NCBI RefSeq assembly: GCF_900313025.1
Contig: NZ_OMPQ01000011.1
Location: 186,001-250,000 of the forward strand
Source of the DNA: Pseudophaeobacter sp. EL27
GTDB lineage: Bacteria; Pseudomonadota; Alphaproteobacteria; Rhodobacterales; Rhodobacteraceae
DNA length: 64,000 bases
Direction of reading: 5' to 3'
Numbering within the stretch: position 1 is the stretch's first letter; each line of letters starts with the position of its first letter. Position numbers and translations under genes: made by a program. Positions 8,350 to 58,013 of this stretch are shown piece after piece. Below the pieces are notes generated by a model that was not told where the DNA came from, made no database searches, and worked only from the letters and a program-made list of their open reading frames with translations.

Positions 8350-8397
8350 ATCCACCACCACTAATTTTCACCCACTATTGGGATATCAGCTGGGGTG

Positions 8398-28949: not shown

Positions 28950-29483
28950 ATGACACAATCCACTGATCCAGCCCCCTCTGCCGCTTCTGCCTTACCCGGG
29001 CCACCTGCCCCGATTTGCCTCAGGCTAACCTCTCCTGAGGCAACGGCAGAACTGGCGCAACAGCTCGCCCACCAGCTGCATCCCGGCGACTGCCTGTTGC
29101 TGGAGGGCCCCATTGGGGCCGGCAAAACCCATTTTGCCCGCAGTCTGATCCAATCACTGATGGTGCAACCCGAAGACGTGCCCTCGCCGACCTTTACCCT
29201 GGTGCAGACCTATGATGTCCCCTCGGGGGAGCTGTGGCATGCGGATCTCTATCGGCTTTCCGCCCTTGAAGAGATTGAAGAGCTGGGCCTCATGGAGGCC
29301 TTTGACGAGGCCATCTGCCTGATTGAATGGCCCGACCGGCTGGCAGAGCTGACTCCGGCACATGCCCTGTATCTTACGCTCTCGCTGGATCCCGCAGAGG
29401 AAGACTGCCGTCACCTACGCTTCAGCTGGAGCGACGCCAAATGGCAAACCCGCATGGATGAGATTGAAAATGACAGATCGTGA
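28950..29483 (+). CDS. tsaE: tRNA threonylcarbamoyladenosine ATPase TsaE
   Basis: TsaE is the small ATPase that recycles the TsaB-TsaD complex for t6A synthesis. The Walker A motif GPIGAGKTHFAR, the SPTFTLVQTY switch and the WHADLYRL motif are all present, with a longer than usual Ala/Pro-rich N-terminus (177 residues in all). The stop overlaps the amgK start by 14 bases, the first link of a chain of overlapping genes running to addA. Confidence 0.95.
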   Translation: MTQSTDPAPSAASALPGPPAPICLRLTSPEATAELAQQLAHQLHPGDCLLLEGPIGAGKTHFARSLIQSLMVQPEDVPSPTFTLVQTYDVPSGELWHADLYRLSALEEIEELGLMEAFDEAICLIEWPDRLAELTPAHALYLTLSLDPAEEDCRHLRFSWSDAKWQTRMDEIENDRS

Positions 29484-30477: not shown

Positions 30478-31172
30478 TGGAACCTCCTATGGCTCATAAT
30501 GTAATGCTGTTTGCCGCAGGTTTTGGCACCCGTATGAAGGCGCTGACACAGACCTGTCCAAAACCGATGATCCCGGTTGCCGGCCGCCCCCTGATCGACC
30601 ACACGCTAGAGCTGGCGCAGGCACTCCGGCCGGACCGGATCGTTGCCAACCTGCATTACCTGCCACAGGTGCTCGAGGCACATCTCACCCCCAGGGACGT
30701 GCTGCTCAGTCCTGAACTCCCGCAGGTTCTGGATACCGGCGGCGGGCTGCGCCATGCCCTGCCCCTGTTGGGGACGGCGCCCGTTTTCACCGCCAATACG
30801 GATGTGATCTGGAAAGGGGCAAACCCGTTTCAGGTGGCGCTAGACGCCTGGGATCCGGCACAGATGGACGCGCTGCTGGTCTGTATTCCCATCAGCCGTT
30901 GCCGGGGCCGCAAAGGCGCTGGAGATTTCAGCCGCGACCATGCGGGGCGCCTTAGACGCGGCGGAGATCTGGTCTATGGCGGCGTACAGATTCTCAAAAC
31001 CGAGGGGCTGCAAGATATTGAAGAAGAAGTGTTTTCCCTCAATATCCTATGGAACGATATGGCCCAGAAGGACCGGTTGTTTGCGGTGGAATACCCCGGC
31101 CATTGGTGCGATGTGGGGCACCCCGAAGGGATCGCCATTGCCGAGGAACTGATTGCCGATGATGTTGTTTGA
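30477..31172 (+). CDS. murU: N-acetylmuramate-1-phosphate uridylyltransferase MurU
   Basis: A sugar nucleotidyltransferase of 231 residues with the signature MLFAAGFGTRMKALT at the N-terminus, KPMIPVAGRPLIDHTLEL, and NTDVIW for metal and nucleotide binding. It makes UDP-MurNAc from the AmgK product. The ATG at 30477 overlaps the amgK stop by one base; a second ATG at 30489 is possible. It overlaps addB at its 3' end. Confidence 0.88.
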   Translation: MEPPMAHNVMLFAAGFGTRMKALTQTCPKPMIPVAGRPLIDHTLELAQALRPDRIVANLHYLPQVLEAHLTPRDVLLSPELPQVLDTGGGLRHALPLLGTAPVFTANTDVIWKGANPFQVALDAWDPAQMDALLVCIPISRCRGRKGAGDFSRDHAGRLRRGGDLVYGGVQILKTEGLQDIEEEVFSLNILWNDMAQKDRLFAVEYPGHWCDVGHPEGIAIAEELIADDVV

Positions 31173-34116: not shown

Positions 34117-37100
34117 GCGACATCTCTCCAAAGCACCGCGATGCCGCCTCGGAAGCGCAGTTTCGCGCCGCACGACCCGATGCCTCGACCTGGCTGGCCG
34201 CCAATGCCGGGTCAGGCAAGACCAAGGTTTTGACCGACCGTGTGGCACGCCTGCTGCTGAAGGGCGTGCAGCCGCAGCACATCCTCTGCCTCACCTATAC
34301 CAAGGCCGCCGCTAGCGAGATGCAGAACCGCCTGTTTCAGCGCCTCGGCGAATGGGCCATGCTGCGCGACGATCAACTCACCGCTGCGCTCAGCGAATTG
34401 GGCGAGGTCAATACCGCGCCTGAAGACCTGGCCCAGGCGCGCACGCTCTTTGCCCGCGCAATTGAAACGCCGGGTGGGCTGAAAATCCAGACAATCCACT
34501 CATTTTGTTCGTCGCTGCTGCGGCGCTTTCCGCTGGAGGCCGGGGTCAGCCCGCAGTTTTCCGAGATGGAAGATCGCGCCGCCTCCCTGTTGCGCGCCGA
34601 GATTGTTGAGGACATGGCCAAGGGTGAGATGGCCCATCTGGTAGAGCCGCTGGCACGCCATGTTGGTGGCAGCGATTTTGAAGATCTCACTGCGGCCCTG
34701 TGTCAGCGCCGGGCCGAGTTTGAGGTCCCGCTGGACTGGTCCGGGCTGCTATCGCGGTTTGAACTGCCTGACGGGTTTGACTCGGCGGGTTTGGAAGCTT
34801 TGGTATTCATCGGCGGCGAGGCGGAGCTGCTGTCGCGCACCCGTGCCATGCTGGAAACCGGCGGCACCACTGACCAACGCGCTGCTGCCAAACTTGCAGG
34901 TATCACCACGCCAACCCTGAGCGATCTGGCCACGCTGGAAGGCATCTTCCTGACCGGGGCCGGGGCTGCGGATCCCTTCACTGCCAAGGTCGGCAAGTTC
35001 CCGACCAAAAAACTGCGCGAAGCCAACCATAGCCTGATGGATCAGTTGGAGCCCCTGATGCTGCGGGTGGAAGACGCCCGCGCCAAACGGCTGGCGCTGG
35101 TGGCGGCACGGAAATCCCACGATCTGCATCAATTTGCCCAGACCTTCCTGCCAGAATATGAGGCGCGCAAACAGCAACGTGGCTGGCTCGACTTTGATGA
35201 TCTGATCCTCAACGCGCGCCATCTTCTGAATGACCCGGCGGTGGCGGCCTGGGTGCTCTATCGTCTGGATGGCGGCATCGATCATATTCTGGTGGATGAG
35301 GCCCAGGACACCAGCCCGGTGCAATGGGACGTGATTGAGAAACTAGCGCAGGAATTCACTGCCGGCGAGGGTGCCCGGTCCGATGTGGAACGCACCATCT
35401 TTGTGGTGGGCGACAAAAAGCAGTCGATCTATTCCTTTCAGGGTGCGGATCCTGATGCCTTTGACCGGATGCAGGTGGAGTTTGCCAATCGGCTTTCTGA
35501 ATCCGGCTCTGGCCTACAGAATGCGGCGCTGGAATTCTCCTTTCGCTCCTCCGCCGCCATCCTCCGGCTGGTGGATCTGGTGTTCAAAGATAGCCCCCGC
35601 GCCGGCTTTCACGCCGATGCCCTGCACCGCGCTTTTAAGTCCGACTTGCCTGGACGGGTGGATCTCTGGCCTGCCGTGGATAAGACCGATGATGACGATG
35701 ACAGCGACTGGACCGATCCGGTGGACCGCCCCGGCAGCCGCCATCATACGGTCATTCTGGCCGAGCGCATCGCCCGCCAAATCAAGGAGATGATCGACAC
35801 ACGAGTCACCATCCCCGAAGACGGCCCCAAACGCGGCACATTTCAACGTCGCCCCGTGCATGCGGGGGATTTTCTTATTCTGGTACAGCGCCGCTCCGAG
35901 TTGTTTTCGGAAATCATCCGCGCCTGTAAAAATGCCAATCTGCCCATTGCCGGTGCCGACCGGTTGAAGGTTGGGGCAGAACTGGCGGTGAAAGATATCG
36001 CCGCGCTCTTGTCCTTTCTGGCCACACCTGAGGATTCACTGGCCCTGGCCGAGGTTTTGAAATCGCCGCTGTTTGGCTGGTCCGAACAGATGCTGTTTGA
36101 TCTCGCCCATCGCCGTAGCAGCAAACACCTGTGGCCTGCCCTGCGCGACCGCCGGGAGGATTTCCCCGAGACCATGGCTGTGCTGGATGATCTGCGCGAT
36201 CTGACCGACTTTCTACGGCCCTTTGATCTCATTGAGCGCATTCTGACCCGCCATAAAGGACGGCAGATGCTGCTGGGCCGACTCGGGCCTGAAGCCGAGG
36301 ATGGCATCAATGCGCTGCTCAGCCAGGCGTTGGCCTATGAACGTTCGGATATCCCCAGCCTCACCGGGTTTCTGGTCTGGATGCAGACCGATGATCTGGA
36401 AATCAAACGGCAGATGGGGGCCTCGGGGGATATGATCCGGGTCATGTCGGTGCATGGCTCGAAAGGGCTGGAAGCGCCAATTGTGATCCTGCCCGATACC
36501 GCCAAACGCAATGCGCCCAGTGATGCCGAGATCATGGTGGCGGATGGCACGCCGCTGTGGAAGCTGCCCAAGGATCAGATGCCGGACCTGTTGTTTTCCG
36601 CCCGCGAGGCAGCACAGGAAAAGCAACAGAATGAGCGATTGAGGCTCTTGTATGTGGCGCTGACCCGAGCGGAAAAGTGGCTGATTGTGGCCACTGCCGG
36701 GACGCTCTCAAAAGAGGGCGACAGCTGGTATCAGCGGGTCGAGGCGGCCCTGATTGAAGGGGGTGCCACAGCCTGCGATCTGCCCGGAGGCGAGGGCCTG
36801 CGTCTGAGCCATGGAGATTGGGAGGCGCTGGATCTGGTGGCGCATGAGGTGAAGGAAAAAATCCGCCCCGTTCTGCCAGAGGTCTTTACCCAGCCAGCGC
36901 CTGCCTATGTGGCGCCGGAGCCCGCGATTAAGCCCTCTGATCTGGGCGGGGCCAAGGCGCTGCCTGGTGATCAGGGACTGGACGAAGAAGAAGCAAAGGC
37001 GCGCGGTAGCCGGTTGCATCTGTTGCTGGAACATCTGCCCCCTCAGCCAAGCGCCGATTGGCCACTGTTAACTGAGCGCCTGTTGCCGGAGGCCACAGAT

Positions 37101-37481
37101 GGTGCTGAACTCTTGGCCGAAGCCAGTGCTGTTTTGAGCAATCCGCAGCTTTCCCATATCTTTGCGCCTGAAGCCCTGGCCGAGGTGCCGGTCACTGCCC
37201 AGCTAGGCAGCCAGCGTATCTATGGCATCATCGACCGGTTGATCGTGACCCCGGACAGGGTTCTGGTGGTGGATTTCAAATCTAATGCCGCGGTGCCGGA
37301 AAAGGCGCAGAGCTGCCCCAAGGGGTTGTTGCGCCAGATGGGTGCCTATGCTGCTGCGCTGGCGCAGATCTACCCGGATCGCAAGATCGAGACCGCACTT
37401 TTGTGGACCCGTAACGCCAGCCTGATGATGTTGCCGCACGATCTTGTGACAGAAGCACTCAAGCCGGTGCTGAAACCTTGA
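34113..37481 (+). CDS. addA: Double-strand break repair helicase-nuclease AddA
   Basis: AddA is the UvrD-type motor and second nuclease of AddAB. The Walker A motif is ANAGSGKTKVL near residue 30, with LTYTKAAASEM, DEAQDTSPVQWDVIEKL (motif II), GDKKQSIYSFQGADP (III), the SVHGSKGLEAPIVILP motif V and LLYVALTRAEKWL (VI). The C-terminal nuclease carries RLIVTPDRVLVVDFKSN. At 1122 residues it is full length. It is the last gene of the tsaE-amgK-murU-addB-addA chain. Confidence 0.97.
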   Translation: MSDISPKHRDAASEAQFRAARPDASTWLAANAGSGKTKVLTDRVARLLLKGVQPQHILCLTYTKAAASEMQNRLFQRLGEWAMLRDDQLTAALSELGEVNTAPEDLAQARTLFARAIETPGGLKIQTIHSFCSSLLRRFPLEAGVSPQFSEMEDRAASLLRAEIVEDMAKGEMAHLVEPLARHVGGSDFEDLTAALCQRRAEFEVPLDWSGLLSRFELPDGFDSAGLEALVFIGGEAELLSRTRAMLETGGTTDQRAAAKLAGITTPTLSDLATLEGIFLTGAGAADPFTAKVGKFPTKKLREANHSLMDQLEPLMLRVEDARAKRLALVAARKSHDLHQFAQTFLPEYEARKQQRGWLDFDDLILNARHLLNDPAVAAWVLYRLDGGIDHILVDEAQDTSPVQWDVIEKLAQEFTAGEGARSDVERTIFVVGDKKQSIYSFQGADPDAFDRMQVEFANRLSESGSGLQNAALEFSFRSSAAILRLVDLVFKDSPRAGFHADALHRAFKSDLPGRVDLWPAVDKTDDDDDSDWTDPVDRPGSRHHTVILAERIARQIKEMIDTRVTIPEDGPKRGTFQRRPVHAGDFLILVQRRSELFSEIIRACKNANLPIAGADRLKVGAELAVKDIAALLSFLATPEDSLALAEVLKSPLFGWSEQMLFDLAHRRSSKHLWPALRDRREDFPETMAVLDDLRDLTDFLRPFDLIERILTRHKGRQMLLGRLGPEAEDGINALLSQALAYERSDIPSLTGFLVWMQTDDLEIKRQMGASGDMIRVMSVHGSKGLEAPIVILPDTAKRNAPSDAEIMVADGTPLWKLPKDQMPDLLFSAREAAQEKQQNERLRLLYVALTRAEKWLIVATAGTLSKEGDSWYQRVEAALIEGGATACDLPGGEGLRLSHGDWEALDLVAHEVKEKIRPVLPEVFTQPAPAYVAPEPAIKPSDLGGAKALPGDQGLDEEEAKARGSRLHLLLEHLPPQPSADWPLLTERLLPEATDGAELLAEASAVLSNPQLSHIFAPEALAEVPVTAQLGSQRIYGIIDRLIVTPDRVLVVDFKSNAAVPEKAQSCPKGLLRQMGAYAAALAQIYPDRKIETALLWTRNASLMMLPHDLVTEALKPVLKP

Positions 37482-37506
37482 CGATTGGTTACGCGCTACC
37501 TAGGTT
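37478..37506 (+). promoter_or_regulatory. Candidate promoter for trxA
   Basis: TTGACG (5 of 6 to the -35 consensus) and TAGGTT (3 of 6 to the -10) are 17 bases apart at the addA stop, 38 bases before the trxA start. Plausible but weak in the -10. Confidence 0.4.
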
Positions 37507-37543
37507 CCAACTCCAGTTGCCATAGAATTCAGGAGACATTCCC

Positions 37544-37864
37544 ATGTCCACCGTAGCCGTCACCGACGAAACATTTGACGCCGAAGTCAAGAACTCCGCA
37601 GTCCCCGTTGTGGTGGATTTCTGGGCCGAATGGTGTGGTCCATGCAAACAGATCGGCCCCGCTCTGGAAGAGCTGGCGGCGGAATATGGCGACAAGATCA
37701 AGATCGCCAAAGTGGATGTCGACAGCAACCCCAACGCCGCTGCGGCCATGGGCGTACGCGGCATTCCGGCGCTGTTCATCTTCAAGGACGGTCAGGTTGT
37801 CTCCAACCGTGCCGGTGCTGCCCCCAAGGCCGCGCTGCAGAGCTGGATCAACGATTCCATCTGA
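37544..37864 (+). CDS. trxA: Thioredoxin
   Basis: A 106-residue cytosolic thioredoxin, which reduces protein disulfides using electrons from thioredoxin reductase. The active site WCGPC has C31 and C34; D25 (VVDFWAEW) and the cis-Pro in [12 protein letters not shown] are conserved. A CAGGAG site supports the start. A terminator follows at once, so it is a single-gene unit. Confidence 0.98.
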
Positions 37865-37888
37865 TCCATTCGATCACTGCGTTTCAAA

Positions 37889-37917
37889 AGGCGTCCTCAA
37901 ATGGGGGCGTCTTTTTT
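37889..37917 (+). terminator. Rho-independent terminator after trxA
   Basis: An 11-bp stem with three G-U pairs (AGGCGTCCTCA / TGGGGGCGTCT) is followed by TTTTTT. Confidence 0.8.
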
Positions 37918-37935
37918 GGTTTGAAAGGCCGGTTT

Positions 37936-38154
37936 ATGACCCCTGAATTTCGTCAAAAAGCGATTGCAGTCTGCGACGATAAGATCGCCAAGAAAGGCCC
38001 TGGTGTCGGCCTGTCTTTCTATGCGTTTTTCAAAAATCGCAACGATGAACCGCTGTTGCTGATGCAAGTGGCGCGCTGGTGGATTGAGACCCATCAGCTG
38101 GATCATTTTGAGAAGGCGGTAAGAATTCGCAACATGATCCGATCTGGTGAATGA
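37936..38154 (+). CDS. Small DUF6500-type protein
   Basis: A 72-residue protein starting MTPEFRQKAIAVCDDKIAKKG and containing GVGLSFYAFFKNRNDEPLLLMQ and WWIETHQLDHFEKA. Residues and length match what I remember of DUF6500, a family without a known role. The start is the ATG just after the trxA terminator; longer in-frame readings run back through trxA and are shadows. Confidence 0.7.
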   Translation: MTPEFRQKAIAVCDDKIAKKGPGVGLSFYAFFKNRNDEPLLLMQVARWWIETHQLDHFEKAVRIRNMIRSGE

Positions 38155-38161
38155 TTGCTTA

Positions 38162-38220
38162 GGGGCAGATGCCATTGGCTCAAAAGGAGGCGCTGCCCCC
38201 ATAGGCCCTAGTGGGCCTAT
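38162..38220 (+). other. Two consecutive hairpins ahead of the Lin0512 pair
   Basis: GGGGCAG (38162-38168) can pair with CTGCCCC (38193-38199), immediately followed by ATAGGCCC (38201-38208) with GGGCCTAT (38213-38220). No T tract follows. It lies in the 157-base leader of the Lin0512 genes and could terminate upstream transcripts or affect their translation. Confidence 0.4.
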
Positions 38221-38311
38221 CCCCCGGGATATTTGTGGCCAAATGAAGAATGGGGGTTTTCTTTTTAGCTGCGCTGCGGAGAGTGACAGGCCAGAGAGAC
38301 TGGAGGTCGGC

Positions 38312-38662
38312 ATGAGTAAAACACGGGTCTTGGTGGAGTTTGGCATGGGGACGTCGTTGCGGCGGGAAGATTACACCGAGGCGGCAAAACGCGCGCTCAA
38401 GGATGCGCTTTGGCACAACTCGGTGAGCATTGCGGAGCTGTTTGATTTTCCCAAAGAGGCCATGATCATTGATGCGGAGATTGGCGTGGCAAAACCAGAT
38501 CAGGTGGATATCGACACGCTGAAGGCGATATTTCCCTATGGTCAGCCCAGCATTACGGTGACGCAAGGTGGGTTGGACGTGGCAAAACCCAACGCTGAGA
38601 GCGTGACGGTGATCGCCAATGCCGCGGTGATTGTCTCGTTTGATATGGAGGCGATGTCATGA
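38312..38662 (+). CDS. Lin0512-family protein, first copy
   Basis: A 116-residue protein of the Lin0512 family, starting MSKTRVLVEFGMGTSLRREDYTEAAKRALKDALWHNSVSI, split here as domain core and helix. The family forms small ring-like oligomers of unknown function. I start at 38312, where GGAGG lies 6-7 bases ahead; a longer in-frame reading starts back at 38147 but lacks family sequence. It overlaps the second copy by four bases. The two copies share the FGMGT/EMGTG motif, the DYTxAAxRA motif and the Gly-Gly-Leu segment near the C-terminus. Confidence 0.85.
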   Translation: MSKTRVLVEFGMGTSLRREDYTEAAKRALKDALWHNSVSIAELFDFPKEAMIIDAEIGVAKPDQVDIDTLKAIFPYGQPSITVTQGGLDVAKPNAESVTVIANAAVIVSFDMEAMS

Positions 38663-39024
38663 GCAACAAGCGTATTATTCTGGAAATGGGTACTGGCAAC
38701 GATCTTTATGGTCAGGACTACACCAAGGCCGCGCGGCGGGCAGTGCAGGACTCGCTGCATCATTCCTCGATCACCCTATTTGCCAAACTGGGTATTGATC
38801 ACAGCGAAATGCAGGTGGATGTCACCATTGCGGTGCAGGATCCGGCGCAGGTGGATTGTGATCTTGTAGCGCAGGACCTGCCCCGTGGGCGCGCCACCGT
38901 GCGGGCCGTCAAGGGCGGGTTGAATGTAACGGACCCTGAATCTGATGCGGTGCACATCGTTGCCACTGCCGCGATTGAGGCCTGGCTGCCGGATCAGGCA
39001 ACTGCTTACCGGCTAAGTTCCTAA
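38659..39024 (+). CDS. Lin0512-family protein, second copy
   Basis: A 121-residue paralogue of the gene before it, beginning MSNKRIILEMGTGNDLYGQDYTKAARRAVQDSLHHSS, with the shared VKGGLNVTDP segment. The ATGA overlap means coupled translation and suggests the two form a hetero-oligomer in fixed ratio. Divergence between the copies is large, so the duplication is old. Confidence 0.85.
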   Translation: MSNKRIILEMGTGNDLYGQDYTKAARRAVQDSLHHSSITLFAKLGIDHSEMQVDVTIAVQDPAQVDCDLVAQDLPRGRATVRAVKGGLNVTDPESDAVHIVATAAIEAWLPDQATAYRLSS

Positions 39025-39056
39025 AAAGACAAAGCCGCCCCAGATTGGAGCGGCTT
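39020..39056 (-). terminator. Terminator after the DUF1127 gene
   Basis: A 10-bp stem with one mismatch (AAGCCGCCCC / GGAGCGGCTT) is followed on the minus strand by TTTGTCTTTTT. It also lies just past the Lin0512 stop and may serve both sides. Confidence 0.7.
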
Positions 39057-39093
39057 ATCTCGTCTGGTGCATCCTGCACCCGGTCTGTAGATC

Positions 39094-39285
39094 TTACAGT
39101 TTGGTGATATCTGCCCGGGACAGGCCGATGTCTTCCAGCTGTGCCGCAGTGAGCTGAGACAGCGCTTTGCGGGTCTGGCGAGATTCATTCCATTCAACCA
39201 TATTGGTTTTGAAGTTCATGAGTCCGTCTACCAAACGAAGAACGGAGACTGCGCCCAGCGGCGCATGGAGGTTTGCGGTCGTCAT
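39094..39285 (-). CDS. DUF1127 small Arg-rich protein
   Basis: A 63-residue protein whose C-terminal 35 residues are a DUF1127 domain (RQTRKALSQLTAAQLEDIGLSRADI). DUF1127 proteins of alphaproteobacteria can bind RNA and affect growth-phase or phosphate responses. It is a single-gene unit with its own terminator. Confidence 0.9.
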   Translation of the reverse strand: MTTANLHAPLGAVSVLRLVDGLMNFKTNMVEWNESRQTRKALSQLTAAQLEDIGLSRADITKL

Positions 39286-39486
39286 TGCACTAGTCCTTTA
39301 AGTTCGTGTGTATTCATGTTGTCTGCTTGTAAGCTCCATGTAGGAGAGCTTGCTGAGTCTCACAATTGCCCATTTATCAGTCCCGATTTGCGCTCTGTGC
39401 ATAGCGCGTAAGCAATTTATTAACGGCGTTGAAACAAGCCGGGGCAAAAACAGATGGACGGTCAAAGCCCGCTGATCCGGCCGAGT

Positions 39487-39515
39487 CTTGTACAGCATCG
39501 GAGATAGATCCATAT
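39487..39515 (+). promoter_or_regulatory. Candidate heat-shock (RpoH) promoter for hslV
   Basis: CTTG at 39487 and TCCATAT at 39509-39515 lie 15 bases apart after the 7-base -35 unit, close to the RpoH consensus CTTGAAA...CCCATNT. The hslV ATG is 26 bases further on. The assignment rests on these two boxes and the known heat-shock control of hslVU. Confidence 0.5.
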
Positions 39516-39541
39516 AGAAGGCAACAAAACTGGAGGCTTAA

Positions 39542-40132
39542 ATGGCAGATGATCAATTCCCCGGCTGGCACGGAACCACCATCATTGGTGTCAAAAAGGG
39601 TGGCGAAGTGGTCATTGCCGGCGATGGGCAGGTCTCCTTGGGGCAGACCGTGATCAAAGGCACCGCCCGCAAGGTGCGCCGTCTGTCACCTGGCGGCTTT
39701 GATGTTATTGTCGGTTTTGCTGGCTCTACCGCCGATGCCTTTACCCTGTTGGAACGGCTGGAGGCCAAGCTTGAGGCCACGCCGGGCCAGTTGGCACGGG
39801 CCAGTGTTGAGCTCGCCAAAGACTGGCGCACCGACAAATACCTGCAAAAACTCGAAGCCATGTTGATCGTCACCGACGGGGTCGAGCTTTTGGTGATCAC
39901 TGGCGCCGGGGATGTACTGGAGCCGGAACATAACGTAGCGGCGATTGGCTCGGGCGGGAATTTTGCGCTGGCAGCGGCCCGTGGCATGATGGACAGTGAG
40001 CGCAACGCCGAGGCCGTGGCCCGTGATGCCATGGCGATTGCTGCTGATATCTGCGTCTATACAAATGGACGACTGACGGTCGAAAGCATCGCTGCGGATA
40101 CCGATACGGCAGAAGCCACCCCGGAGAGCTGA
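39542..40132 (+). CDS. hslV: ATP-dependent protease peptidase subunit HslV
   Basis: HslV forms the double-hexamer peptidase of the HslVU protease. The catalytic N-terminal Thr after processing is T12 in [12 protein letters not shown], so an 11-residue propeptide is removed, longer than the single Met of E. coli Hsl[23 protein letters not shown] and [13 protein letters not shown] are family motifs. Length 196. A GGAG site 7-8 bases ahead supports the start. hslU is separated by a membrane-protein gene. Confidence 0.97.
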
Positions 40133-40133
40133 T

Positions 40134-41204
40134 GTGAGCCAGATCGACCAGAATGATATTCGCGCGGCCGTTGGCTCTGGCCTGATCAGCGAGGCCCAGG
40201 CGGCCTCTTTGCTGGCCCTGTCCCACAGTCGGCGTGGGGCGCGCGAAGATCTCTCGCCTGGAGATGAACCCTTTGAGCTGTTCAAAGGCTTCAACGAGAT
40301 TTTCATTGTCATCGGCATGCTCATTCTGGCCTCGGGTTGGGCAGCTGTTACCGCCGCCTTTATCGCCGGCTCCTTAGGCGGCTATGTGGAAAAGACCATT
40401 TCCTCCTCGGCGCTGGGGGCTGTGGTGCTGTGGGTCTTTGCCGAGTATTTCATTCGCCGCCGCCGGATGATCGCCCCGGCCATCGCGCTCTCGCTGCTTT
40501 GGGCTGCCAATGCCGGGACCGGGATGACGGCCTTTTTCTCGGAACCTTTCATGGTGGCGCAAAACGACCTGTCGAGCCTGCCGCTGCCGATGGCGCTGAC
40601 CACAGCTGCAGTGGCGCTGTTTTGGCTGCGCTTTCGCGTTCCCTTTGCCATGGCGCTGATTGCGCTGGGGGTCTTTGCCCTCACCCTGATGATGGCCGCT
40701 GAGCAAGCTGGTCGGCCCGAAGGCATCAGCGATTTCTTCCTGTTTTCTGCCTCTGGTCCCTTTGCCTGGGTGACATTGGTTGTAGGGATTGCCGTCTTTG
40801 CCGTGGCGATGATGTTTGATCTCAGCGATCCGCATCGCGTCACCCGGCGCGCAGCGCAGGGGTTCTGGCTGCATGTTGTTGCCGCCCCGGCGCTGGTCAA
40901 TACCATCGCGCTGAGCCTGCTGGACAGTGGCACCTCTGGCGCGCAGCTGACCCTTGTTGTGGTCCTGCTGGGATTTGCCCTGGTGGCCATTATCATTGAC
41001 CGCCGATCTTTCCTGATAGCCGCTATCGGCTATAGCGTGACCCTGGCCAGCACCGTCTTTGATGGCGAGGGCGCGGCCATGACCATTCTTTTGCTGGGTT
41101 TCTTCCTGGTGATCCTTGGCGCCTTCTGGGCGCGGATCCGGGCGGCCCTGCTCTCTCCTTTGGGCGCTGTGCTGCCGCTGCACCGCCTTCCTCCTTCCCA
41201 CTGA
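40134..41204 (+). CDS. Polytopic membrane protein between hslV and hslU
   Basis: A 356-residue inner-membrane protein with about ten hydrophobic helices after a soluble N-terminus (residues 1-60) that includes [14 protein letters not shown], a short helical motif seen in DUF2157-type proteins. Function not recognised. It starts at a GTG one base after the hslV stop and ends 13 bases before hslU, so it is certainly in the operon. Why a membrane protein sits inside a protease operon is unclear; a membrane-stress link is only a guess. Confidence 0.8.
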
Positions 41205-41217
41205 AACGAGACCTGCC

Positions 41218-42531
41218 ATGACTGACCTGACCCCCCGCGAAATCGTTTCTGAACTGGACCGTTTTATCATCGGACAGAACGACGCAAAACGCGCCGTTGC
41301 CGTGGCACTGCGCAACCGCTGGCGCCGCAAGCAGCTGTCGGATGATCTGCGCGACGAAGTCTATCCCAAGAACATCTTGATGATCGGGCCAACCGGCGTT
41401 GGTAAAACCGAAATCTCGCGCCGCCTGGCGAAACTCGCCCGCGCGCCTTTCATCAAGGTAGAGGCCACCAAGTTCACCGAAGTGGGCTATGTTGGGCGGG
41501 ACGTGGAACAGATCATCCGCGATCTGGTGGACAGCGCTATTGTCCAGACCCGCGAATTCATGCGTGAAGACGTCACCGCCAAGGCGCAAAAAGCCGCCGA
41601 AGAGCGGGTGATCGACGCGCTCGCCGGGGAGGACGCCCGCGAAATCACCCGCGAAGTTTTTCGCAAAAAACTGAAATCGGGGCAGTTGGATGATGCTATG
41701 ATCGAATTGGATGTCGCCGATAGCAGCAACCCGATGGGCAATATGTTTGAAATTCCCGGTCAGCCTGGCGCTGGCAATATGGGGATGCTCAACATCGGGG
41801 ATATGCTGGGCAAGGCCATGGGCGGGCGCACCCAGCGCAAAAAGATGACCGTGGCCGAAAGCTATGATGTGCTGATCAGCGATGAGGCCGATAAGCTGCT
41901 GGATGATGAGGTTGTCACACGTGCTGCCGTTGAATCGGTTGAGCAAAGCGGCATCGTTTTTCTGGATGAGATCGACAAGGTCTGCGCCCGTTCGGATGCG
42001 CGCGGGGGCGATGTCAGCCGCGAAGGCGTGCAGAGGGATCTGCTGCCCCTGATCGAAGGCACCACGGTCAGCACCAAACATGGGCCAATCAAAACAGACC
42101 ATATCCTGTTCATTGCCTCCGGCGCCTTTCATGTGGCCAAGCCTTCTGACCTGCTGCCGGAATTGCAGGGCCGCCTGCCGATCCGGGTCAACCTGCGCTC
42201 GCTAAACGAGGCTGACTTTATTCGCATTCTGACTGAAACCGACAATGCGCTCACCCTGCAATACACTGCCCTGATGCAGACCGAAGAAGTCGAAGTGACC
42301 TTCACCCAAGATGGGATTGCGGCGCTTGCCAAGATTGCAGCTGAGGTGAATCACTCCGTAGAAAACATCGGCGCGCGCCGCCTTTACACGGTGATAGAGC
42401 GGGTGTTTGAGGAGCTTTCTTTCACCGCCCCGGACAAAGGCGGGGAAAAGGTCACCGTCAATGCCAGCTTTGTCAGCAAACACCTGGGCGAGCTGGCCGG
42501 CAAAAGTGACCTCAGCCGCTACGTTCTGTAG
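41218..42531 (+). CDS. hslU: ATP-dependent protease ATPase subunit HslU
   Basis: HslU unfolds substrates and feeds them to HslV. It starts [20 protein letters not shown], has Walker [10 protein letters not shown], Walker B VFLDEIDK, the pore loop VGYVGRDVE, an inserted I domain (about residues 110-230), sensor-2 [10 protein letters not shown] and the conserved C-terminal SRYVL that docks into HslV. Length 437. The in-frame extension to 41116 lies inside the membrane-protein gene and is not used. Confidence 0.98.
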
Positions 42532-48723: not shown

Positions 48724-49553
48724 CGCAGAGCCGCCGCGCGCGTGGCGGTATCCACATCAGGACGCTGACCAAACCAACGTTCAAAACCGGGAACCGCCTG
48801 ATGCAGCAGCATGCCCAAGCCATCAACCACAGTGCAGCCGACGTCTTCGGCGGCCTGCAACAGATCGGTTTTAAGAGGGGAGTAGATCAGATCGGTGACA
48901 ACCATATTTGGCTTTAACCCATCCAGTGGCACCCGCAGGCGCGGTTTGCCAACCATGCCAAGCGAGGTGGTGTTCACCACCAGGGCTGCATCTTCGATAA
49001 TATTGCCAGCCAATACCCAGTCCACAACCTGAATACGCTTGCCAAATTCTTTCTGAAGCTGCTCAGCCCGTTCACGGGTACGATTGGTCAGCAGGATTTC
49101 CGGCACGCCAGCCTCGATCAGAGAGGCAACAACCGCACGACAGGCCCCGCCGGCGCCCAACACCGCCGCCGGTCCGCTCGCCGGAACCCAATCCGGGGCA
49201 CCCTGGTGCAGGTTGGTGATAAACCCATAACCATCTGTGTTATCAGCCAGAATGCTGCCATCACTGCGAAAAATGATAGTATTGGCCGCACCCATCAGTT
49301 TGGCCCGGTCGGTGACCTTATCCGCGATCTTCATCACCGCTTCTTTGTGCGGGATGGTGACATTGACACCGACAAACCCCGCCTTGGGCAGGGTCCGGAT
49401 CACCGTCTCCAGATCTTCCGGTTCCACATGCATCGGGACATAGTGTCCGGCTATGCCATGCGCCTTGAGCCAATGTGTTTGCAACTGTGGCGATTTGGAA
49501 TGTGCCACAGGGCAGCCGATCACGCCGGCCAGAGGGATCTTTTTATCGCTCAT
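48720..49553 (-). CDS. aroE: Shikimate dehydrogenase
   Basis: AroE reduces 3-dehydroshikimate with NADPH in aromatic amino acid synthesis. Substrate residues lie in HSKSPQLQTHWL and VNVTIPHKEAVM (catalytic Lys), the NADP fold in AVLGAGGACRAVVASL, and the specificity loop in NRTRERAEQL. Length 277. Tightly overlapped on both sides in the operon. Confidence 0.97.
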   Translation of the reverse strand: MSDKKIPLAGVIGCPVAHSKSPQLQTHWLKAHGIAGHYVPMHVEPEDLETVIRTLPKAGFVGVNVTIPHKEAVMKIADKVTDRAKLMGAANTIIFRSDGSILADNTDGYGFITNLHQGAPDWVPASGPAAVLGAGGACRAVVASLIEAGVPEILLTNRTRERAEQLQKEFGKRIQVVDWVLAGNIIEDAALVVNTTSLGMVGKPRLRVPLDGLKPNMVVTDLIYSPLKTDLLQAAEDVGCTVVDGLGMLLHQAVPGFERWFGQRPDVDTATRAAALR

Positions 49554-50149
49554 TGATCAATTACACCCTGTAGTCCCAGATAGTTGAGCAGTTCCACCAG
49601 AGGTAGTCCCAGAACATTAAAGTAACTCCCTTCAATGTTGGAAAACAAGCGCACGCCTTCCTCTTCCAGTTTATAGGCCCCAACGGCATGTTGAATGCTC
49701 TGCCAATTGCGCGCCACATAAGAGGAAAGATAGCCATCCGAACAGTCGTGCATCCGCAGCCGCACCTGTCCCACATGACGCCAGATCGGTTCTCCGTCAC
49801 GATAGATCACCGCGGCAGACAAGAGCATGTGTCGTTTTCCACGCATGGCACTAAGCTGCGCCAGCGCTTCCTCTTCGGTTTTGGGCTTTGACAGCAGCGC
49901 CCCTTCAAAATCGAGCACCTGATCACAGCCCAAAACCAGCGGTCCTGGGTTCTTCATGCTCACCTTGCGCGCCTTTGCCTCGGCCAGGGCATCGGCAATA
50001 TCACGCGGGCCGGCCCCTTCCGCCAAAAGTGCGGCTTTGATCGCTTCTTCATCGACGCGGGCCACCTGGACCTCAAAGGGCACGGCGGCCTGACGCAGAA
50101 GCTGGGCACGGATCTCGGAACCGGAAGCCAACAGGATGTGGGCAGACAT
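49550..50149 (-). CDS. maf: Maf-family nucleoside triphosphate pyrophosphatase
   Basis: Maf proteins hydrolyse modified or canonical NTPs and dTTP/UTP to monophosphates. The N-terminus (ILLASGSEIRAQLL), VARVDEEAIKAAL and LVLGCDQVLDFEGALLSKP are family motifs; this version has DFEG where many have a Gly-rich loop. Length 199. It is the first gene of the left arm from the predicted origin, and a DnaA-like box overlaps its start codon. Confidence 0.93.
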   Translation of the reverse strand: MSAHILLASGSEIRAQLLRQAAVPFEVQVARVDEEAIKAALLAEGAGPRDIADALAEAKARKVSMKNPGPLVLGCDQVLDFEGALLSKPKTEEEALAQLSAMRGKRHMLLSAAVIYRDGEPIWRHVGQVRLRMHDCSDGYLSSYVARNWQSIQHAVGAYKLEEEGVRLFSNIEGSYFNVLGLPLVELLNYLGLQGVIDQ

Positions 50150-50561
50150 GTGGAAAACCCCATGGAAAAGATGCGCAAGTTTGTAGGATGGTTTGTATGG
50201 TTTTCCGAGGTTTTAGCAAGTGCACAGGAAAACCCAAAATTCCACGAAAGGATCCGCTGATTCCTCCGCCGTGGATTGGGATAACTCGTGAAACCGGGAT
50301 ATCTGTGATCTCCCCGATTCCTCCAAGGGTTATCCCCATAGTAATCTTAGTTAACAGAAGGTTAATTTCCCTTATTTCTAAGTGCGTTAACCAAAGTGTC
50401 ACCAATGTGGCGACATTGGGGCAGTATATCTATCCACCTTGGGGATAAGGCGGTGAAGGACTGAATAATCCACTGAAATCCATGCCCCTACAAAAACATC
50501 ATCCTTTAAATCTTTCTTTATTATTATAAGGGTGGCCTAACAAAGCCCGAGAGAGAGACCG
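50150..50561. other. Predicted chromosomal replication origin (oriC)
   Basis: This 412-base gap has no gene. It holds DnaA-like 9-mers: TTATCCCCA at 50330-50338 and, reversed, at 50440-50448 (each one mismatch from TTATCCACA), TTTTCCACA reversed at 50149-50157 (one mismatch), and two-mismatch boxes at 50276-50284, 50430-50438 and 50466-50474. A perfect CtrA box lies at 50351-50365. An AT-rich tract at about 50489-50530 could be the unwinding element. Genes on both sides are transcribed away from it, maf-aroE-coaE-dnaQ to the left and hemJ-rho-mnmE-mnmG-rsmG-parAB to the right, as around other alphaproteobacterial origins. Confidence 0.8.
50351..50365. promoter_or_regulatory. CtrA box inside the predicted oriC
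   Basis: TTAACAGAAGGTTAA is a perfect TTAA-N7-TTAA, between the two best DnaA-like boxes. In Caulobacter, CtrA bound at the origin blocks initiation. Confidence 0.7.
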
Positions 50562-51017
50562 ATGGACCTGACAGACTGGATGTTCACCCTCTACCCATAT
50601 GCCAAATCGCTGCACATCATGGCGGTGCTCAGCTGGATGGCGGGTTTGTTCTATCTCCCACGCCTGTTCGTGTATCACGTGGAGCAGGCTGAGAAGGTTC
50701 CTGAAAGCCTGTCGATCTTTGTCACCATGGAACAGAAACTGCATCGTTTCATCATGCGCCCGGCAATGATGGCGACCTGGGGGGCAGGCTTGTTCATGGC
50801 GGCAACCCCAGGATTGGTCGATTGGGGCTCTGTGTGGCCCTGGAGCAAGGCTCTGGCGGTAATTGGCATGACCTGGTTCCACTATTGGCTTTTGATGCGC
50901 CAGCGGGACTTTGCTGCGGGTCAGAACAAACTCAGTGGGCGGCGCTATCGCATGATGAATGAAGTCCCGACGCTGTTGATGGTGGTGATCGTGGTCTCGG
51001 TGATCTTCAAGTTCTGA
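50562..51017 (+). CDS. hemJ: Protoporphyrinogen oxidase HemJ
   Basis: HemJ is the membrane protoporphyrinogen IX oxidase of most alphaproteobacteria. The 151-residue protein has four membrane helices; conserved His lies in SLHIMAVLSWMAGLFYLPRLFVYH, and KxxWFHYWL and SGRRYRMMNEVPTLLM are family segments. It is the first gene to the right of the predicted origin and precedes rho by 188 bases. Confidence 0.95.
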   Translation: MDLTDWMFTLYPYAKSLHIMAVLSWMAGLFYLPRLFVYHVEQAEKVPESLSIFVTMEQKLHRFIMRPAMMATWGAGLFMAATPGLVDWGSVWPWSKALAVIGMTWFHYWLLMRQRDFAAGQNKLSGRRYRMMNEVPTLLMVVIVVSVIFKF

Positions 51018-51205: not shown

Positions 51206-52477
51206 ATGACCGTCGAATCCCTCAATCTTTCTGATCTCAAGGCGCAAAGCCCCAAGAACCTTCTGTCTATGGCCGAAGAGCTGGAGATCGAAAACGCCTC
51301 GACCATGCGCAAGGGCGAGATGATGTTCCAGATCCTGCGTGAACGCGCGGATGAGGGCTGGGAAATCGGCGGCGATGGCGTTTTGGAAGTTTTGCAGGAT
51401 GGATTCGGTTTCCTGCGCTCGCCCGAGGCCAACTATCTGCCGGGTCCGGATGATATCTATGTTTCGCCGGATATGATCCGCAAACATTCGCTGCGCACTG
51501 GTGACACCATCGAGGGCCAGATCAAGGCGCCACTGGAGGCAGAGCGTTACTTTGCCATGACCAGCGTGACCAAGATCAACTTTGAAGATCCTGAAAAGGC
51601 GCGTCACAAGATTGCCTTTGACAACCTCACACCGCTCTACCCGGATGAGCGTCTGAAGATGGAAGTCGAAGATCCAACGCTGAAAGACCGTTCTGCCCGT
51701 GTGATCGATCTGGTAGCGCCCATCGGCAAGGGTCAGCGTTCGCTGATCGTGGCGCCGCCACGCACCGGTAAGACGATGATTTTGCAGAACATCGCAAACT
51801 CGATCGAGAAGAATCACCCAGAATGCTATCTCATCGTTCTGCTAATCGACGAACGCCCCGAAGAAGTCACCGACATGCAGCGCTCGGTAAAGGGGGAGGT
51901 TGTCTCCTCCACCTTTGATGAGCCGGCAACGCGCCACGTTGCGGTGTCTGAAATGGTCATTGAAAAAGCCAAGCGTCTGGTCGAACATAAGCGAGATGTT
52001 GTTATCCTTCTCGATTCGATCACAAGACTTGGTAGGGCGTTCAACACGGTTGTGCCGTCTTCTGGTAAGGTTCTGACCGGTGGTGTAGATGCCAATGCCC
52101 TGCAACGTCCCAAACGTTTCTTTGGCGCCGCCCGGAACATCGAAGAGGGTGGCTCGCTGACCATTATCGCCACCGCACTGATCGATACGGGCAGCCGTAT
52201 GGATGAGGTTATCTTTGAAGAATTCAAAGGTACTGGTAACTCTGAACTGGTTCTGGACCGCAAGATTGCCGACAAACGGGTCTATCCTGCCATCGACATC
52301 CTCAAATCCGGCACCCGGAAAGAGGAGCTTTTGGTGGACAAGGGCGATCTGGCAAAGACCTTTGTATTGCGGCGTATCCTCAACCCGATGGGCACCACCG
52401 ATGCAGTCGAGTTCTTGCTGGGTAAGCTGAAACAAACCAAATCCAATTCGGATTTCTTTGATTCAATGAACACCTAA
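51206..52477 (+). CDS. rho: Transcription termination factor Rho
   Basis: Rho is the hexameric RNA helicase that ends transcription. The N-terminal RNA-binding domain ([43 protein letters not shown]) is followed by Walker A APPRTGKT, Walker [17 protein letters not shown] and the R and Q loops ([28 protein letters not shown]). I use the ATG at 51206; a TTG one codon earlier is also open. Length 423. Confidence 0.98.
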
Positions 52478-53802: not shown

Positions 53803-55686
53803 GTGTTTCACGTGAAACATTCGGATTTTGATGTTGTGGTTATTGGTGGCGGTCACGCGGGAACCGAGGCGGCCCATGCTGCCGCGCGAATGGGTGCACA
53901 AACCGCTCTGATCACTTTGATCCGCAAGGGTATCGGCGTGATGTCCTGTAACCCCGCCATTGGCGGCCTGGGAAAGGGACATTTGGTCCGAGAGATTGAT
54001 GCCATGGATGGCGTCATGGGGCAGGTGGCTGACCTCGCCGGCATTCAATTCAGGCTTCTAAATCGGCGCAAAGGCCCTGCAGTTCAGGGGCCACGCGCTC
54101 AATCTGATCGCGGTATCTATCAACGCGAGATGCTGAAACGTACAGAAGCACAGGAAAACCTTCAGATCATTGAAGGGGAAGCCACAGACCTCCTGATGCA
54201 GGGACAGCGGGTAACGGGCGTAGTCCTCGCTGATGGGAGTGAAATTCACAGCAAATCTGTAATTCTGACCACTGGAACCTTCCTGCGCGGTGTGATCCAT
54301 ATCGGGGATGTGTCCAAGCCTGGCGGACGCATGGGGGATCGTCCCTCTGTCAAATTGGCTGAGCGGCTGGACAGCTTTGAGCTGCCAATGGGGCGTTTAA
54401 AGACCGGTACTCCTCCGCGACTGGACGGACGCACAATCAAATGGGACATTTTGGAAGGGCAGCCGGGGGACGAGGATCCAACGTTTTTCTCCTTCATGAC
54501 CAAGGAATTGTCGGCCAAGCAAGTTGTCTGTGGAATCACCCATACCAACGAAACGACCCACGAGATCATTCGCAAAAACCTTTCTCGTTCTGCGATGTAC
54601 GGGGGGCATATCGATGGTGTTGGTCCAAGATATTGCCCTTCTATCGAAGACAAGATTGTCAGATTTGCGGATAAGACCTCCCACCAGATTTTTTTGGAGC
54701 CTGAAGGCGCCACGGACCATACGGTCTACCCAAATGGTATTTCGACCAGCCTGCCAGTGGAGGTGCAGCTAGACTATGTTCGCTCCATCGTAGGCCTTGA
54801 AAACGCAGAAATTCTGCAACCCGGATATGCGATCGAGTATGACTATATCGATCCACGAGCGCTCTCCTTGGATCTTTCGTTGAAAGATATCCCAGGTCTT
54901 TACCTTGCAGGGCAGATCAACGGAACGACAGGTTACGAAGAAGCAGCAGCTCAGGGGTTGGTTGCTGGGCTAAGTGCAGCAGCAAAGTGTCGCGACCTGG
55001 AGCCCGTAAAGTTTGGACGTTCAAACAGCTATATTGGCGTCATGGTTGATGACCTGACCACGCATGGTGTTACCGAACCCTACCGGATGTTTACTTCACG
55101 GGCAGAATTCCGACTATCCTTGCGGGCAGATAACGCTGATCAACGGCTTACGCCCTTGGCTATTGCAGTAGGGTGCATTTCTGATGACAGGAAAGCTGCA
55201 TTTGAAGCAAAGGTAGAGCGTTTGGAAGCAACCAGAGCTGTTCTGGAGCGATCTGTCTTTACGCCAAAACAGATCGCTGAGTCTGGGATTTACGTTAACC
55301 AGGATGGAAATAAGAGAACTGGTTTTGAAGTCTTGGCCTTTCCTGATGTCAAATTCGAAAATCTGATTTCTTTGTTGCCTGAGTGTGATGAGACGGATGC
55401 TGTTACGAGGCGACAGCTGGAGCGAGATGCGCTCTATGTGCATTACATTGCTCGGCAAGAAAAGGAGATTGCAGCTGTCAAACGGGATGAGGGCCATGTA
55501 ATTCCTGATGGGTTTGACTATAGCACGATCGAAGGCCTGTCGGCGGAGCTACAGCAAAAGCTGTCTTTGGCACGTCCTGAAACCTTGGCAAAGGCCAGCC
55601 GAATCAATGGTATGACTCCCGCAGGGCTGGCTTTGGTGTTGGCACGGTTGCGAAAGAATATGCGGTCACAGGAGAAAGTTGGATGA
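53803..55686 (+). CDS. mnmG: tRNA uridine-5-carboxymethylaminomethyl synthase MnmG (GidA)
   Basis: MnmG is the FAD enzyme partner of MnmE. It has [21 protein letters not shown], the [28 protein letters not shown] signature split over two segments, and the [20 protein letters not shown] motif. The start is a GTG three bases after mnmE, and an exact parS site forms codons 1-6 (start then FHVKH). Codons are less GC-rich than in genes further from the origin. It overlaps rsmG by four bases. Length 627. Confidence 0.97.
53804..53819. other. parS centromere site 1 (in the mnmG start)
   Basis: TGTTTCACGTGAAACA is an exact, perfectly palindromic 16-bp parS. It overlaps the GTG start of mnmG and lies 3.2 kb from the predicted oriC and 3.3 kb from parB. 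Confidence 0.95.
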
Positions 55687-56303
55687 GCGATAGGGAGCTT
55701 TTGGAAGGGCTGAATGTTTCACGTGAAACAATTGAACGTTTGGAAAAGTTCGAAGAGGTATTGCTCAAATGGAATCCGCGAATCAATCTTGTCTCCAAGA
55801 ATAGCCTCGCAGACCTCTGGCAGCGGCATATCGTTGATTCAGTTCAGGTCTTTACCTGTGTGAAAGATTCAGGCAAGTCCTGGGTGGATATAGGCAGTGG
55901 CGGTGGTTTTCCTGGGATTGTTGTGGGCATTATGGCTGCAGAGTATTCGCCAAAGACCAAGGTCACTTTGATCGAAAGTGATCAGCGCAAATCTGCATTC
56001 CTTCGAACTGCTGCGCGAGAGTGCGGGGTACCCGTCACTGTGCTAAATCAACGGATTGAACAGGCAGAGCCGCAAGGGGCACAGATCCTTTCCGCCCGCG
56101 CGGTTGCAGACCTGGATGCACTTCTTGAGTTTTCAGAGCGACATCTTGCCGAAGATGGCATGGCGGTGTTCCCAAAAGGGGCAAGTTGGAAAAAAGAAGT
56201 GGATAAGGCTGCAGAGCGATGGAGATTTGATGTTGAACAGATTACAAGTTTAACTGAGACTGAAGCAGTTATTCTAAAGATCAAGGGGGTCACTCGTGCC
56301 TGA
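55683..56303 (+). CDS. rsmG: 16S rRNA 7-methylguanosine methyltransferase RsmG (GidB)
   Basis: RsmG methylates G527 of 16S rRNA. The SAM-binding motif is [15 protein letters not shown], with [15 protein letters not shown] and the [14 protein letters not shown] segment. A second parS site encodes the N-terminal NVSRET at residues 11-16. Length 206. It overlaps mnmG by four bases and parA by eight. Confidence 0.96.
55715..55730. other. parS centromere site 2 (inside rsmG)
   Basis: An exact TGTTTCACGTGAAACA, read in the frame that gives VSRET. It is 1.9 kb from site 1 and 1.4 kb from the parB start. Confidence 0.95.
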
Positions 56304-57105
56304 TTTATCCCGCCCAGATGGGCCACGAATTATCGCGGTTGCTAATCAAAAGGGCGGGGTGGGTAAGACAACGACAGCAATCAACCTTGCTGCGGCCCTG
56401 GTTGAGACAGGTCTGCGGGTTCTGGTGGTAGATCTGGACCCGCAGGGGAATGCGTCAACCGGCCTAGGGATCGACAGTGCGGATCGCGATGCCACTACAT
56501 ATGATCTGCTTGTTGATGATGCTCCGCTAGATGAAGTGATTCGAACTACAGAAATCGAAGATCTCTGCGTTATTCCCGCGACTGTAGACCTGAGCTCAGC
56601 TGATATTGAGCTTTTCGCCAATGAGAAGCGGAGCTTTCTGTTGCATGACGCGCTGCGGCAGACGGCGATGGATGAATATGATTGGGACTATGTGCTAATC
56701 GACTGCCCGCCGTCGCTTAACCTTTTGACCGTGAATGCCATGGTTGCATCGCATTCTGTGCTGATCCCATTACAAAGTGAGTTCTTTGCCCTGGAGGGGG
56801 TCTCGCAACTGTTGTTGACCATCCGAGAGGTCCGACAATCTGCCAACCCCGGTCTGCGGATTGAAGGGGTTGTGCTCACCATGTTTGACCGACGTAATAA
56901 CCTGTCGCAGCAGGTTGAACAGGATGCACGCGATAATCTGGGCGAGCTGGTGTTTGAAACAAAAATCCCGCGCAATGTTCGGGTCAGCGAAGCGCCATCC
57001 TATGCTTTGCCTGTGCTTAACTATGATAGCAACTCTTTGGGCGCGCGGGCCTACCGGGCCCTGGCGGAAGAGTTGTTGTCGAATAACCAATCAGTCGCGG
57101 CGTGA
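56296..57105 (+). CDS. parA: Chromosome partition ATPase ParA (Soj)
   Basis: ParA drives origin segregation with ParB. The deviant Walker A motif is NQKGGVGKTTTAINLAAAL, Walker A' is VVDLDPQGNASTGLG, and the LIDCPPSLNLLTVNAM motif follows. The start is a GTG preceded by AAGGGGG, overlapping the end of rsmG by eight bases. Length 269. Confidence 0.97.
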   Translation: MPDLSRPDGPRIIAVANQKGGVGKTTTAINLAAALVETGLRVLVVDLDPQGNASTGLGIDSADRDATTYDLLVDDAPLDEVIRTTEIEDLCVIPATVDLSSADIELFANEKRSFLLHDALRQTAMDEYDWDYVLIDCPPSLNLLTVNAMVASHSVLIPLQSEFFALEGVSQLLLTIREVRQSANPGLRIEGVVLTMFDRRNNLSQQVEQDARDNLGELVFETKIPRNVRVSEAPSYALPVLNYDSNSLGARAYRALAEELLSNNQSVAA

Positions 57106-57119
57106 GAGCGGAGTAGAGA

Positions 57120-58013
57120 ATGTCAGAGAAAAGAAACAAGCCTCGTGGATTGGGTCGTGGCCTGTCAGCATTGATGGCGGATGTGAACCCCGAGCCCGTC
57201 AGCACCGAGGGTAAGGCCCCGCGCAATGCAGAGATCCTGGTGCCGATTGAAAAGGTAATTGCCAACCCGGATCAGCCGCGTCGACAATTCCTGCAGGAAG
57301 ATCTTGATGATCTGACGGCTTCGATCAAGGAAAAGGGTGTTCTGCAGCCTCTGATCGTTCGGCCCCGCGATGGCGATATGTATGAAATCGTTGCGGGCGA
57401 ACGCCGCTGGCGTGCCGCCCAGGCCGCGCAACTGCATGAGGTTCCTGTGCTTATCCGGGACTATTCGGATGTTGAGATGATGGAAGTGGCCATCATTGAA
57501 AACATCCAGCGATCGGATCTGAACGCGATGGAAGAGGCCCATAGCTATAAACAGTTGATGGAGCGCTTTGGCCATACCCAGGAACGTATGGCAGAAGCCC
57601 TGGGAAAAAGCCGCAGCCATATCGCCAATCTGGTGCGCCTATTGCATCTGCCAGAGGATGTACGGGCGCTGGTGCATGAGCGCAAACTGTCAGCGGGTCA
57701 TGCCCGTGCGCTGATCACTTCCGACAATGCCTCTGAATTGGCGGGTAAAATCGTCAAAGGTGGTTTGTCAGTCAGGGCCACAGAAGCATTGGTGAAAAAG
57801 GATGCCGCAGGGCTCCAAGCTGGCGCCCCACGCAAACCACGCACGGCGGCCGAAAAGGATGCCGATACCAAGGCGCTTGAGGGGGATCTGTCCGCCATCC
57901 TGCGGATGAAAGTGTCGATCGATCATAAGGCTGGCGGTGAAAGTGGATCCGTTACAATCAGCTATGAGACGCTGGATCAGCTGGATGATATTTGCAATAT
58001 CCTCAGCAAATAA
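57120..58013 (+). CDS. parB: Chromosome partition protein ParB (Spo0J)
   Basis: ParB is a CTP-dependent clamp that loads at parS and spreads. The N-terminus [11 protein letters not shown] contacts ParA. The CTP motif is [10 protein letters not shown] near residue 95, with ENIQRSDLN downstream. The helix-turn-helix that reads parS is [19 protein letters not shown], and the C-terminal 60 residues dimerise. Length 297. Its stop abuts the stop of the convergent DUF454 gene with no gap. Confidence 0.97.

Follow-up and report, generated by a model that had tools for sequence, protein, structure and literature searches.

A predicted chromosomal replication origin between maf and hemJ in a marine roseobacter, with a candidate CtrA-type box

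The maf-hemJ intergenic region and its neighbours

The window, as we call the whole stretch of 64,000 nt that was analysed, spans positions 186001-250000 of contig C4 (475,550 bp), which belongs to a 4.55-Mb draft genome of 16 contigs (G000). The closest named relatives by HemJ similarity carry the labels Pseudophaeobacter, Roseobacter and Phaeobacter. An intergenic region of 412 bp (50150-50561), found exactly where the initial annotation had placed it, separates maf (Maf-like protein; 49550-50149, minus strand) from hemJ (UPF0093/HemJ; 50562-51017, plus strand), so that the two genes are divergent, as had also been claimed. Both proteins passed the Pfam cut-offs (PF02545 and PF03653) and missed those of NCBIfam (TIGR00172, 115 of 117.15 bits; TIGR00701, 126 of 138.05 bits). 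The NCBIfam cut-offs were passed by Rho (51206-52477, plus strand; TIGR00767), MnmE, MnmG, RsmG, AroE, CoaE and ParB (57120-58013, plus strand; TIGR00180). The best NCBIfam model for the ParA-superfamily ATPase encoded by parA (56296-57105, plus strand), a ParA-type one, remained below its cut-off, and the dnaQ-like gene matched an exonuclease family of Pfam.

Two perfect parS sites (TGTTTCACGTGAAACA), called with a consensus that we take to be that of parS, are present at 53804-53819 and 55715-55730, at distances of 3.2 and 5.2 kb from the start of hemJ. Hence, the closeness to a parABS system expected of a bacterial oriC was found, with two parS sites, parA and parB within 7.5 kb, and the mnmE-mnmG-rsmG-parA-parB order with two parS sites reported earlier was recovered by profile matches, ParA being below cut-off. 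All 78 of the 16-kb loci compared contain two parS cores (14-mer), and 76 of them contain two exact 16-mers. Within the pair, one site lies inside the first codons of mnmG and the other close to the rsmG start. The gene hemE, which according to the initial annotation has no place in this neighbourhood, was indeed located on another contig (C6). No match was obtained in an Rfam search of the 64-kb window, and a search against plasmids yielded a single short hit, located within the hemJ gene of a Sinorhizobium record.

DnaA-like boxes were scanned with TTATCCACA, allowing up to two mismatches, in the gap plus 20-bp margins, and a weighted score was calculated per 412-bp window. The gap scored 10, whereas the runner-up scored 5 within the 64 kb and 6 on the whole of C4. 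All three one-mismatch sites claimed earlier were found by the scan, at 50149-50157 (minus strand; TTTTCCACA, sharing one base with the maf start), 50330-50338 (plus strand; TTATCCCCA) and 50440-50448 (minus strand; TTATCCCCA). The two-mismatch sites were confirmed as present, although four of them were counted with these margins instead of the three announced. They begin at 50276 (minus strand), 50387, 50430 and 50466 (plus strand). The box at 50276-50284 (TTATCCCAA) is the left arm of an inverted pair, of which the 50330 box is the other arm. The box at 50430-50438 (CTATCCACC) is weak, and the weak box at 50466-50474 (TAATCCACT) contains a core, TAATCCAC, that appears in the consensus of all four aligned groups. 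The match at 50387 (TTAACCAAA) looks more like a TTAA half-site than a DnaA box. The hexamer TTAACC at 50387-50392 (plus strand) is a possible second TTAA half-site, and GTTAA occurs at about this place in 12 of 12 gaps of the genus and in 16 of 71 other near gaps.

Three TTATCC hexamers (both strands) lie in the gap, where 0.107 per 412 bp are expected, and no more than two occur in any other such window of C4. No perfect TTATCCACA was detected in the gap with its 20-bp margins, which counts against reading it as an origin. The end of the DnaA protein contains GGRDHTTVMHG, which we take to be the usual DnaA signature; hence, low affinity is a more likely reading of the TTATCCCCA boxes than an altered DnaA. 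DnaA-trio-type repeats were sought by eye with no clear result.

The gap is also rich in AT, with only 3 of the 23,297 windows of C4 (412 bp, 20-bp steps) being richer, some of which may overlap the gap itself. Duplex stability was estimated for 50-mers taken every 5 bp on C4 (n = 94,870), using nearest-neighbour energies. The right-hand tract (50481-50530), which includes ACAAAAACATCATCC and a T-rich run, ranked as the 9th least stable and a central AT-rich tract (50331-50380) as the 11th; unstable tracts such as are expected of a bacterial oriC are therefore present. The AT-rich tract previously indicated at 50489-50530 was thus found at about 50481-50530, and the second, equally unstable one was absent from the initial annotation. 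The right-hand tract is most likely the unwinding element.

Conservation of the gap and the place of replication start

The near set comprised 83 loci, namely the window, 80 loci found through hemJ, and those of G001 and G009 (the latter turned from the other strand). The 80 loci had the highest HemJ similarity among 472, and the set consequently favours close relatives. It divides into 12 gaps of the genus, window included, whose genus membership was matched by place, and 71 of other near relatives. An order group of 29 gaps adds 19, since ten are identical to near gaps. From 20 distant stretches of the family, L258 and L263 were dropped because no maf match was obtained, and 18 were counted. 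Finally, 33 of 148 genomes of the order, all from the same family, lacked a good HemJ match, and 30 loci were returned from these hemJ-less genomes (L276-L305).

The maf-gap-hemJ arrangement was kept in 83 of 83 near loci, with gaps of 387-446 bp that are conserved in blocks rather than evenly. TTATCC reached 3.39 per gap versus 0.23 in shuffled sequences; with the gap as the top window of C4, this amounts to the cluster of DnaA boxes that a bacterial oriC should have. The box overlapping the maf start was found as GTGGAAAAC, with up to one mismatch, in 82 of the 83. Perfect TTATCCACA was commoner in the 18 distant gaps (0.44 per gap) than in near gaps (0.19), and TTATCCCC was rarer (0.44 versus 1.01).

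Two long elements were also conserved. The first (GGATGGTTTGTATGGTTTTCC, 50186-50206) occurs with up to four mismatches in 66 of 83 near gaps, 0 of 415 shuffles, 10 of 29 order-group gaps, 0 of 18 distant gaps and 0 of 30 hemJ-less gaps. The second, which reads CCCTACAAAAACATCATCC here and forms the left part of the right-hand tract (50486-50504), matched the group consensus with up to three mismatches in 78 of 83, 0 of 415, 18 of 29, 1 of 18 and 2 of 30, respectively. Judged by these matches, both elements are limited to the nearer relatives, which counts against the origin reading. By eye, the 50186 element resembles the reverse complement of the 50486 element, and the two lie at opposite ends of the box array.

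One important question is whether the gap does no more than supply divergent promoters to maf and hemJ, so that its conservation reflects transcription control. It does lie between two divergent genes with conserved elements close to both starts, and the presence of the 50186 and 50486 elements in only 0 and 2 of the 30 hemJ-less genomes means that part of the conservation could be transcriptional. The hemJ-less genomes nevertheless make this explanation very improbable. In all 30 loci, of the genes tested, rho is the first to follow maf, hemJ being absent from the interval, and the enrichment of TTATCC stays (2.37 versus 0.32 shuffled, n = 30), indicating that the boxes go with maf rather than with hemJ and that the gap is not merely a hemJ promoter. 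At about 320-390 nt from maf, the consensus of these gaps retains an TAATCCACA box together with CATCATCATCC and a T-rich run, and the likely rho start follows some 150 nt beyond; the right-hand tract is thus found, in a diverged form, at an equal distance from maf, and the long elements as such, on sequence comparison, are diverged. Moreover, a search of the gap for sigma-70-like promoters found none, and transcription control would leave the skew minima described below unexplained.

The cumulative G-C curve of C4 has two wells, one of -6025 at 222 kb (about 36 kb in the window) and one of -5995 at 236 kb (about 50 kb in the window), after which it rises. The raw minimum is the well 14 kb to the left of the gap, which is the deeper of the two by 30 units in about 6,000, and counts against an origin in the gap if the contig is taken alone. 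In three genomes of the same genus (G001, G009 and G004), analysed over 120 kb in 2-kb steps, the minima were located at 3732, 180 and 2286 kb and the hemJ starts at 3732.5, 179.6 and 2286.0 kb, that is, a local minimum no more than one 2-kb step from the gap in three of three. In addition, twenty 20-kb samples taken along each of contigs G001:C6 and G004:C1 showed that the sign of the skew flips at the gap and again at roughly half a chromosome's distance from it. The skew check named in the initial annotation therefore came out in favour of the gap in the three same-genus genomes, though C4 itself, with its two near-equal wells, slightly favours 36 kb.

A true origin some 14 kb further left, near 36 kb in the window, as the raw minimum of C4 at 222 kb would have it, or else at dnaA, is hardly credible, because the matching second well is shallower in the three same-genus genomes, where the minimum is at the gap (-1183 versus -1253 in G001, -2250 versus -2336 in G009 and -1327 versus -1415 in G004), neither place ranks with the top eight box windows of C4, and dnaA (C4:105322-106755) is 130 kb away on a stretch of steadily falling skew. 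A run of plus-strand genes at about 29000-42500 of the window is oriented against the left replichore. This run may be what produces the second well near 36 kb.

The maf-hemJ gap is thus almost certainly the chromosomal replication origin (oriC), as the initial annotation had predicted, on account of its box density, duplex instability, conserved length, boxes kept in the absence of hemJ, parS sites and same-genus skew minima. What can be read from the sequence is the position, the box enrichment, the low duplex stability, the conservation and the skew; from these we infer the binding of DnaA, the tract that opens and the departure of the forks. In the proposed course of events, DnaA would occupy the array of weak TTATCC-type boxes, two of which form the inverted pair, and would open one of the unstable AT-rich tracts, with that on the right (50481-50530) as the likeliest. 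This opening would lead to helicase loading and to two forks leaving in opposite directions. The new origins would afterwards be separated by ParAB through the two parS sites, which lie 3.2 and 5.2 kb to the right.

Comparison with Caulobacter and other alphaproteobacterial origins

The Caulobacter origin (Cori) is placed between hemE and COG1806 in the available text of PMC1914354. As Cori is described there and in the accessible parts of PMC4468827, it and the gap are alike in a length of about 400 bp, in an AT-rich tract, in DnaA boxes that are weak rather than perfect (low-affinity boxes are described in Cori in the latter source) and in sites for CtrA, of which the gap has a candidate box. 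They differ in that Cori has five CtrA sites and one full CtrA-type box was found here, and in their flanks. The initial annotation was right that hemE flanks the Caulobacter origin, but the recorded pair is hemE and COG1806, and both are missing from the flanks of the gap. COG1806 (PF03618) was not found in this genome, whereas the Caulobacter control was positive.

The arrangement in other families was examined in 20 loci, fetched from 93 genomes outside the family with a match in a search of the class. A 365-aa frame was used as the query to locate hemE in these 20 loci and in loci L256-L305. In the 20 other-family loci hemE was always on the hemJ strand and before hemJ, and maf was on the other side in 17; this Cori-type synteny resembles that of the gap, with maf and aroE on one side and hemJ on the other. 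TTATCC was enriched in the 600 nt before hemE (2.6 versus 0.245 shuffled, 20 loci). As this control stretch is where the recorded Caulobacter arrangement puts the origin, the comparable enrichment supports the gap as an origin. The 700 nt upstream of maf in these families (2,394 nt in one locus) were weakly enriched (0.65 versus 0.25, 17 loci), since the origin there is expected before hemE. Two of the 20 distant members of the family, L258 and L263, keep hemE directly before hemJ, an arrangement that is perhaps intermediate between the Caulobacter and roseobacter types.

Within the Rhodobacteraceae, oriCs of 101 strains were predicted by Ori-Finder, according to the available portion of PMC6699656. 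As presented in that portion, these predictions come from the same family and share with the present one the GC-disparity minimum, a local GC minimum, the nearness of parAB and mismatched DnaA boxes; unlike the present one, they come without a base-level anatomy or a CtrA box.

Taken with its relatives, the gap is well supported as an ordinary oriC of known type that is not flanked by hemE and COG1806. This would pin the origin of a genus of marine roseobacters to a 412-bp element. The comparison suggests that conservation attaches to the box array and not to the neighbours: the boxes remained beside maf, whereas hemE and COG1806 are gone from the flank, as is hemJ in some lineages.

The central TTAA-N7-TTAA site

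An exact TTAA-N7-TTAA (TTAACAGAAGGTTAA), which we take to be the CtrA motif, is present at 50351-50365, in agreement with the CtrA box claimed for the gap. Five exact copies occur in the 475,550 bp of C4, where 0.004 per 412 bp are expected. The box stands at gap offset 201 in 12 of 12 genomes of the genus, window included. Elsewhere, an exact box was found anywhere in the gap in 4 of 71 non-genus near gaps (one at offset 200), 0 of 29 order-group, 0 of 18 distant and 1 of 30 hemJ-less gaps, and none was detected before hemE in the 20 loci of other families. Two of the things expected of a CtrA-regulated origin were thus found, a conserved CtrA-type box in the predicted origin and an encoded CtrA protein (C13:241847-242518; NF045991, 433.7 bits with a cut-off of 350). 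Among the genomes compared, the candidate box is a new, genus-specific detail.

According to the accessible part of a 2015 review, CtrA sites had not been seen in origins outside Caulobacter and possibly Rickettsia. In the Rhodobacterales studied, growth was unaffected by the loss of ctrA, and an influence on replication was shown in some of them, as stated in the available text of PMC8116508; that of PMC2877005 describes a simpler CtrA circuit in this order. The origins of D. shibae and R. capsulatus were located by a website in PMC6473078, the available sections of which place CtrA sites at other genes, and those of PMC7901474 concern the terminus. The literature covered, mostly open papers at the level of search results and passages, made no mention of a CtrA box in the origin of any member of the Rhodobacterales.

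The main alternative is that the site is not one for CtrA and arose as a by-product of a sequence that is IHF-like or just rich in AT, and the chance of this being right, somewhat short of even, is substantial. It draws on the other gaps, which were scanned with a consensus presumed to be that of IHF. With up to one mismatch, an IHF-like match was found in this stretch in 32 of 71 non-genus near gaps, 17 of 29 order-group gaps (10 of which repeat near gaps), 7 of 18 distant and 9 of 30 hemJ-less gaps, compared with about 3 percent in local shuffles. TTAA is also present at about the place of the right half-site in 36 of the 71 non-genus near gaps, and the ctrA promoter itself only nearly matches TTAA-N7-TTAA. 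The enrichment appears only in this tolerant positional test, and the strict IHF consensus was rare (0 of 12 in the genus, 7 of 71 other near, 2 of 29 order-group, 4 of 18 distant and 4 of 30 hemJ-less gaps). An IHF site in the gaps of the genus was considered and set aside as weak, because the best tolerant match is largely the CtrA-type box itself.

Against a by-product stands the pattern of conservation in the genus, where the gaps have pairwise identities of 0.65-0.99 (median 0.81). In the alignment (n = 12), the half-sites are invariant in 8 of 8 columns, compared with 1 of 7 in the spacer and 20 of 53 others nearby. Invariance of 8 of 8 columns with no more than 2 of 7 spacer columns was obtained in 2 of 398 placements in the gap, namely the CtrA-type box and one running into a DnaA-like box. 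Furthermore, one of the four other exact boxes of C4 precedes a MotB-domain gene by about 40 nt, and CtrA controls flagellar genes in every order studied, according to the available text of PMC8116508.

If the box is bound by CtrA, its place in the middle of the box array, on the central AT-rich tract, would allow CtrA to gate or delay firing. Tentatively, the genus may have wired its origin to CtrA on its own, through one box built where relatives have an IHF-like match, letting the motility and quorum-sensing phosphorelay delay replication; the case is possible but doubtful. If true, the Caulobacter origin with its dual IHF/CtrA site would have an independent parallel here, and a regulator that the studied members of the order can do without would nevertheless delay replication in this genus. 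Binding of CtrA to the box would offer a compact natural case of such an order-dispensable regulator coming to touch an origin.

The exact box near the MotB-domain gene (7516-8361, minus strand) is located at 8398-8412 in the window, and it is likely a CtrA target.
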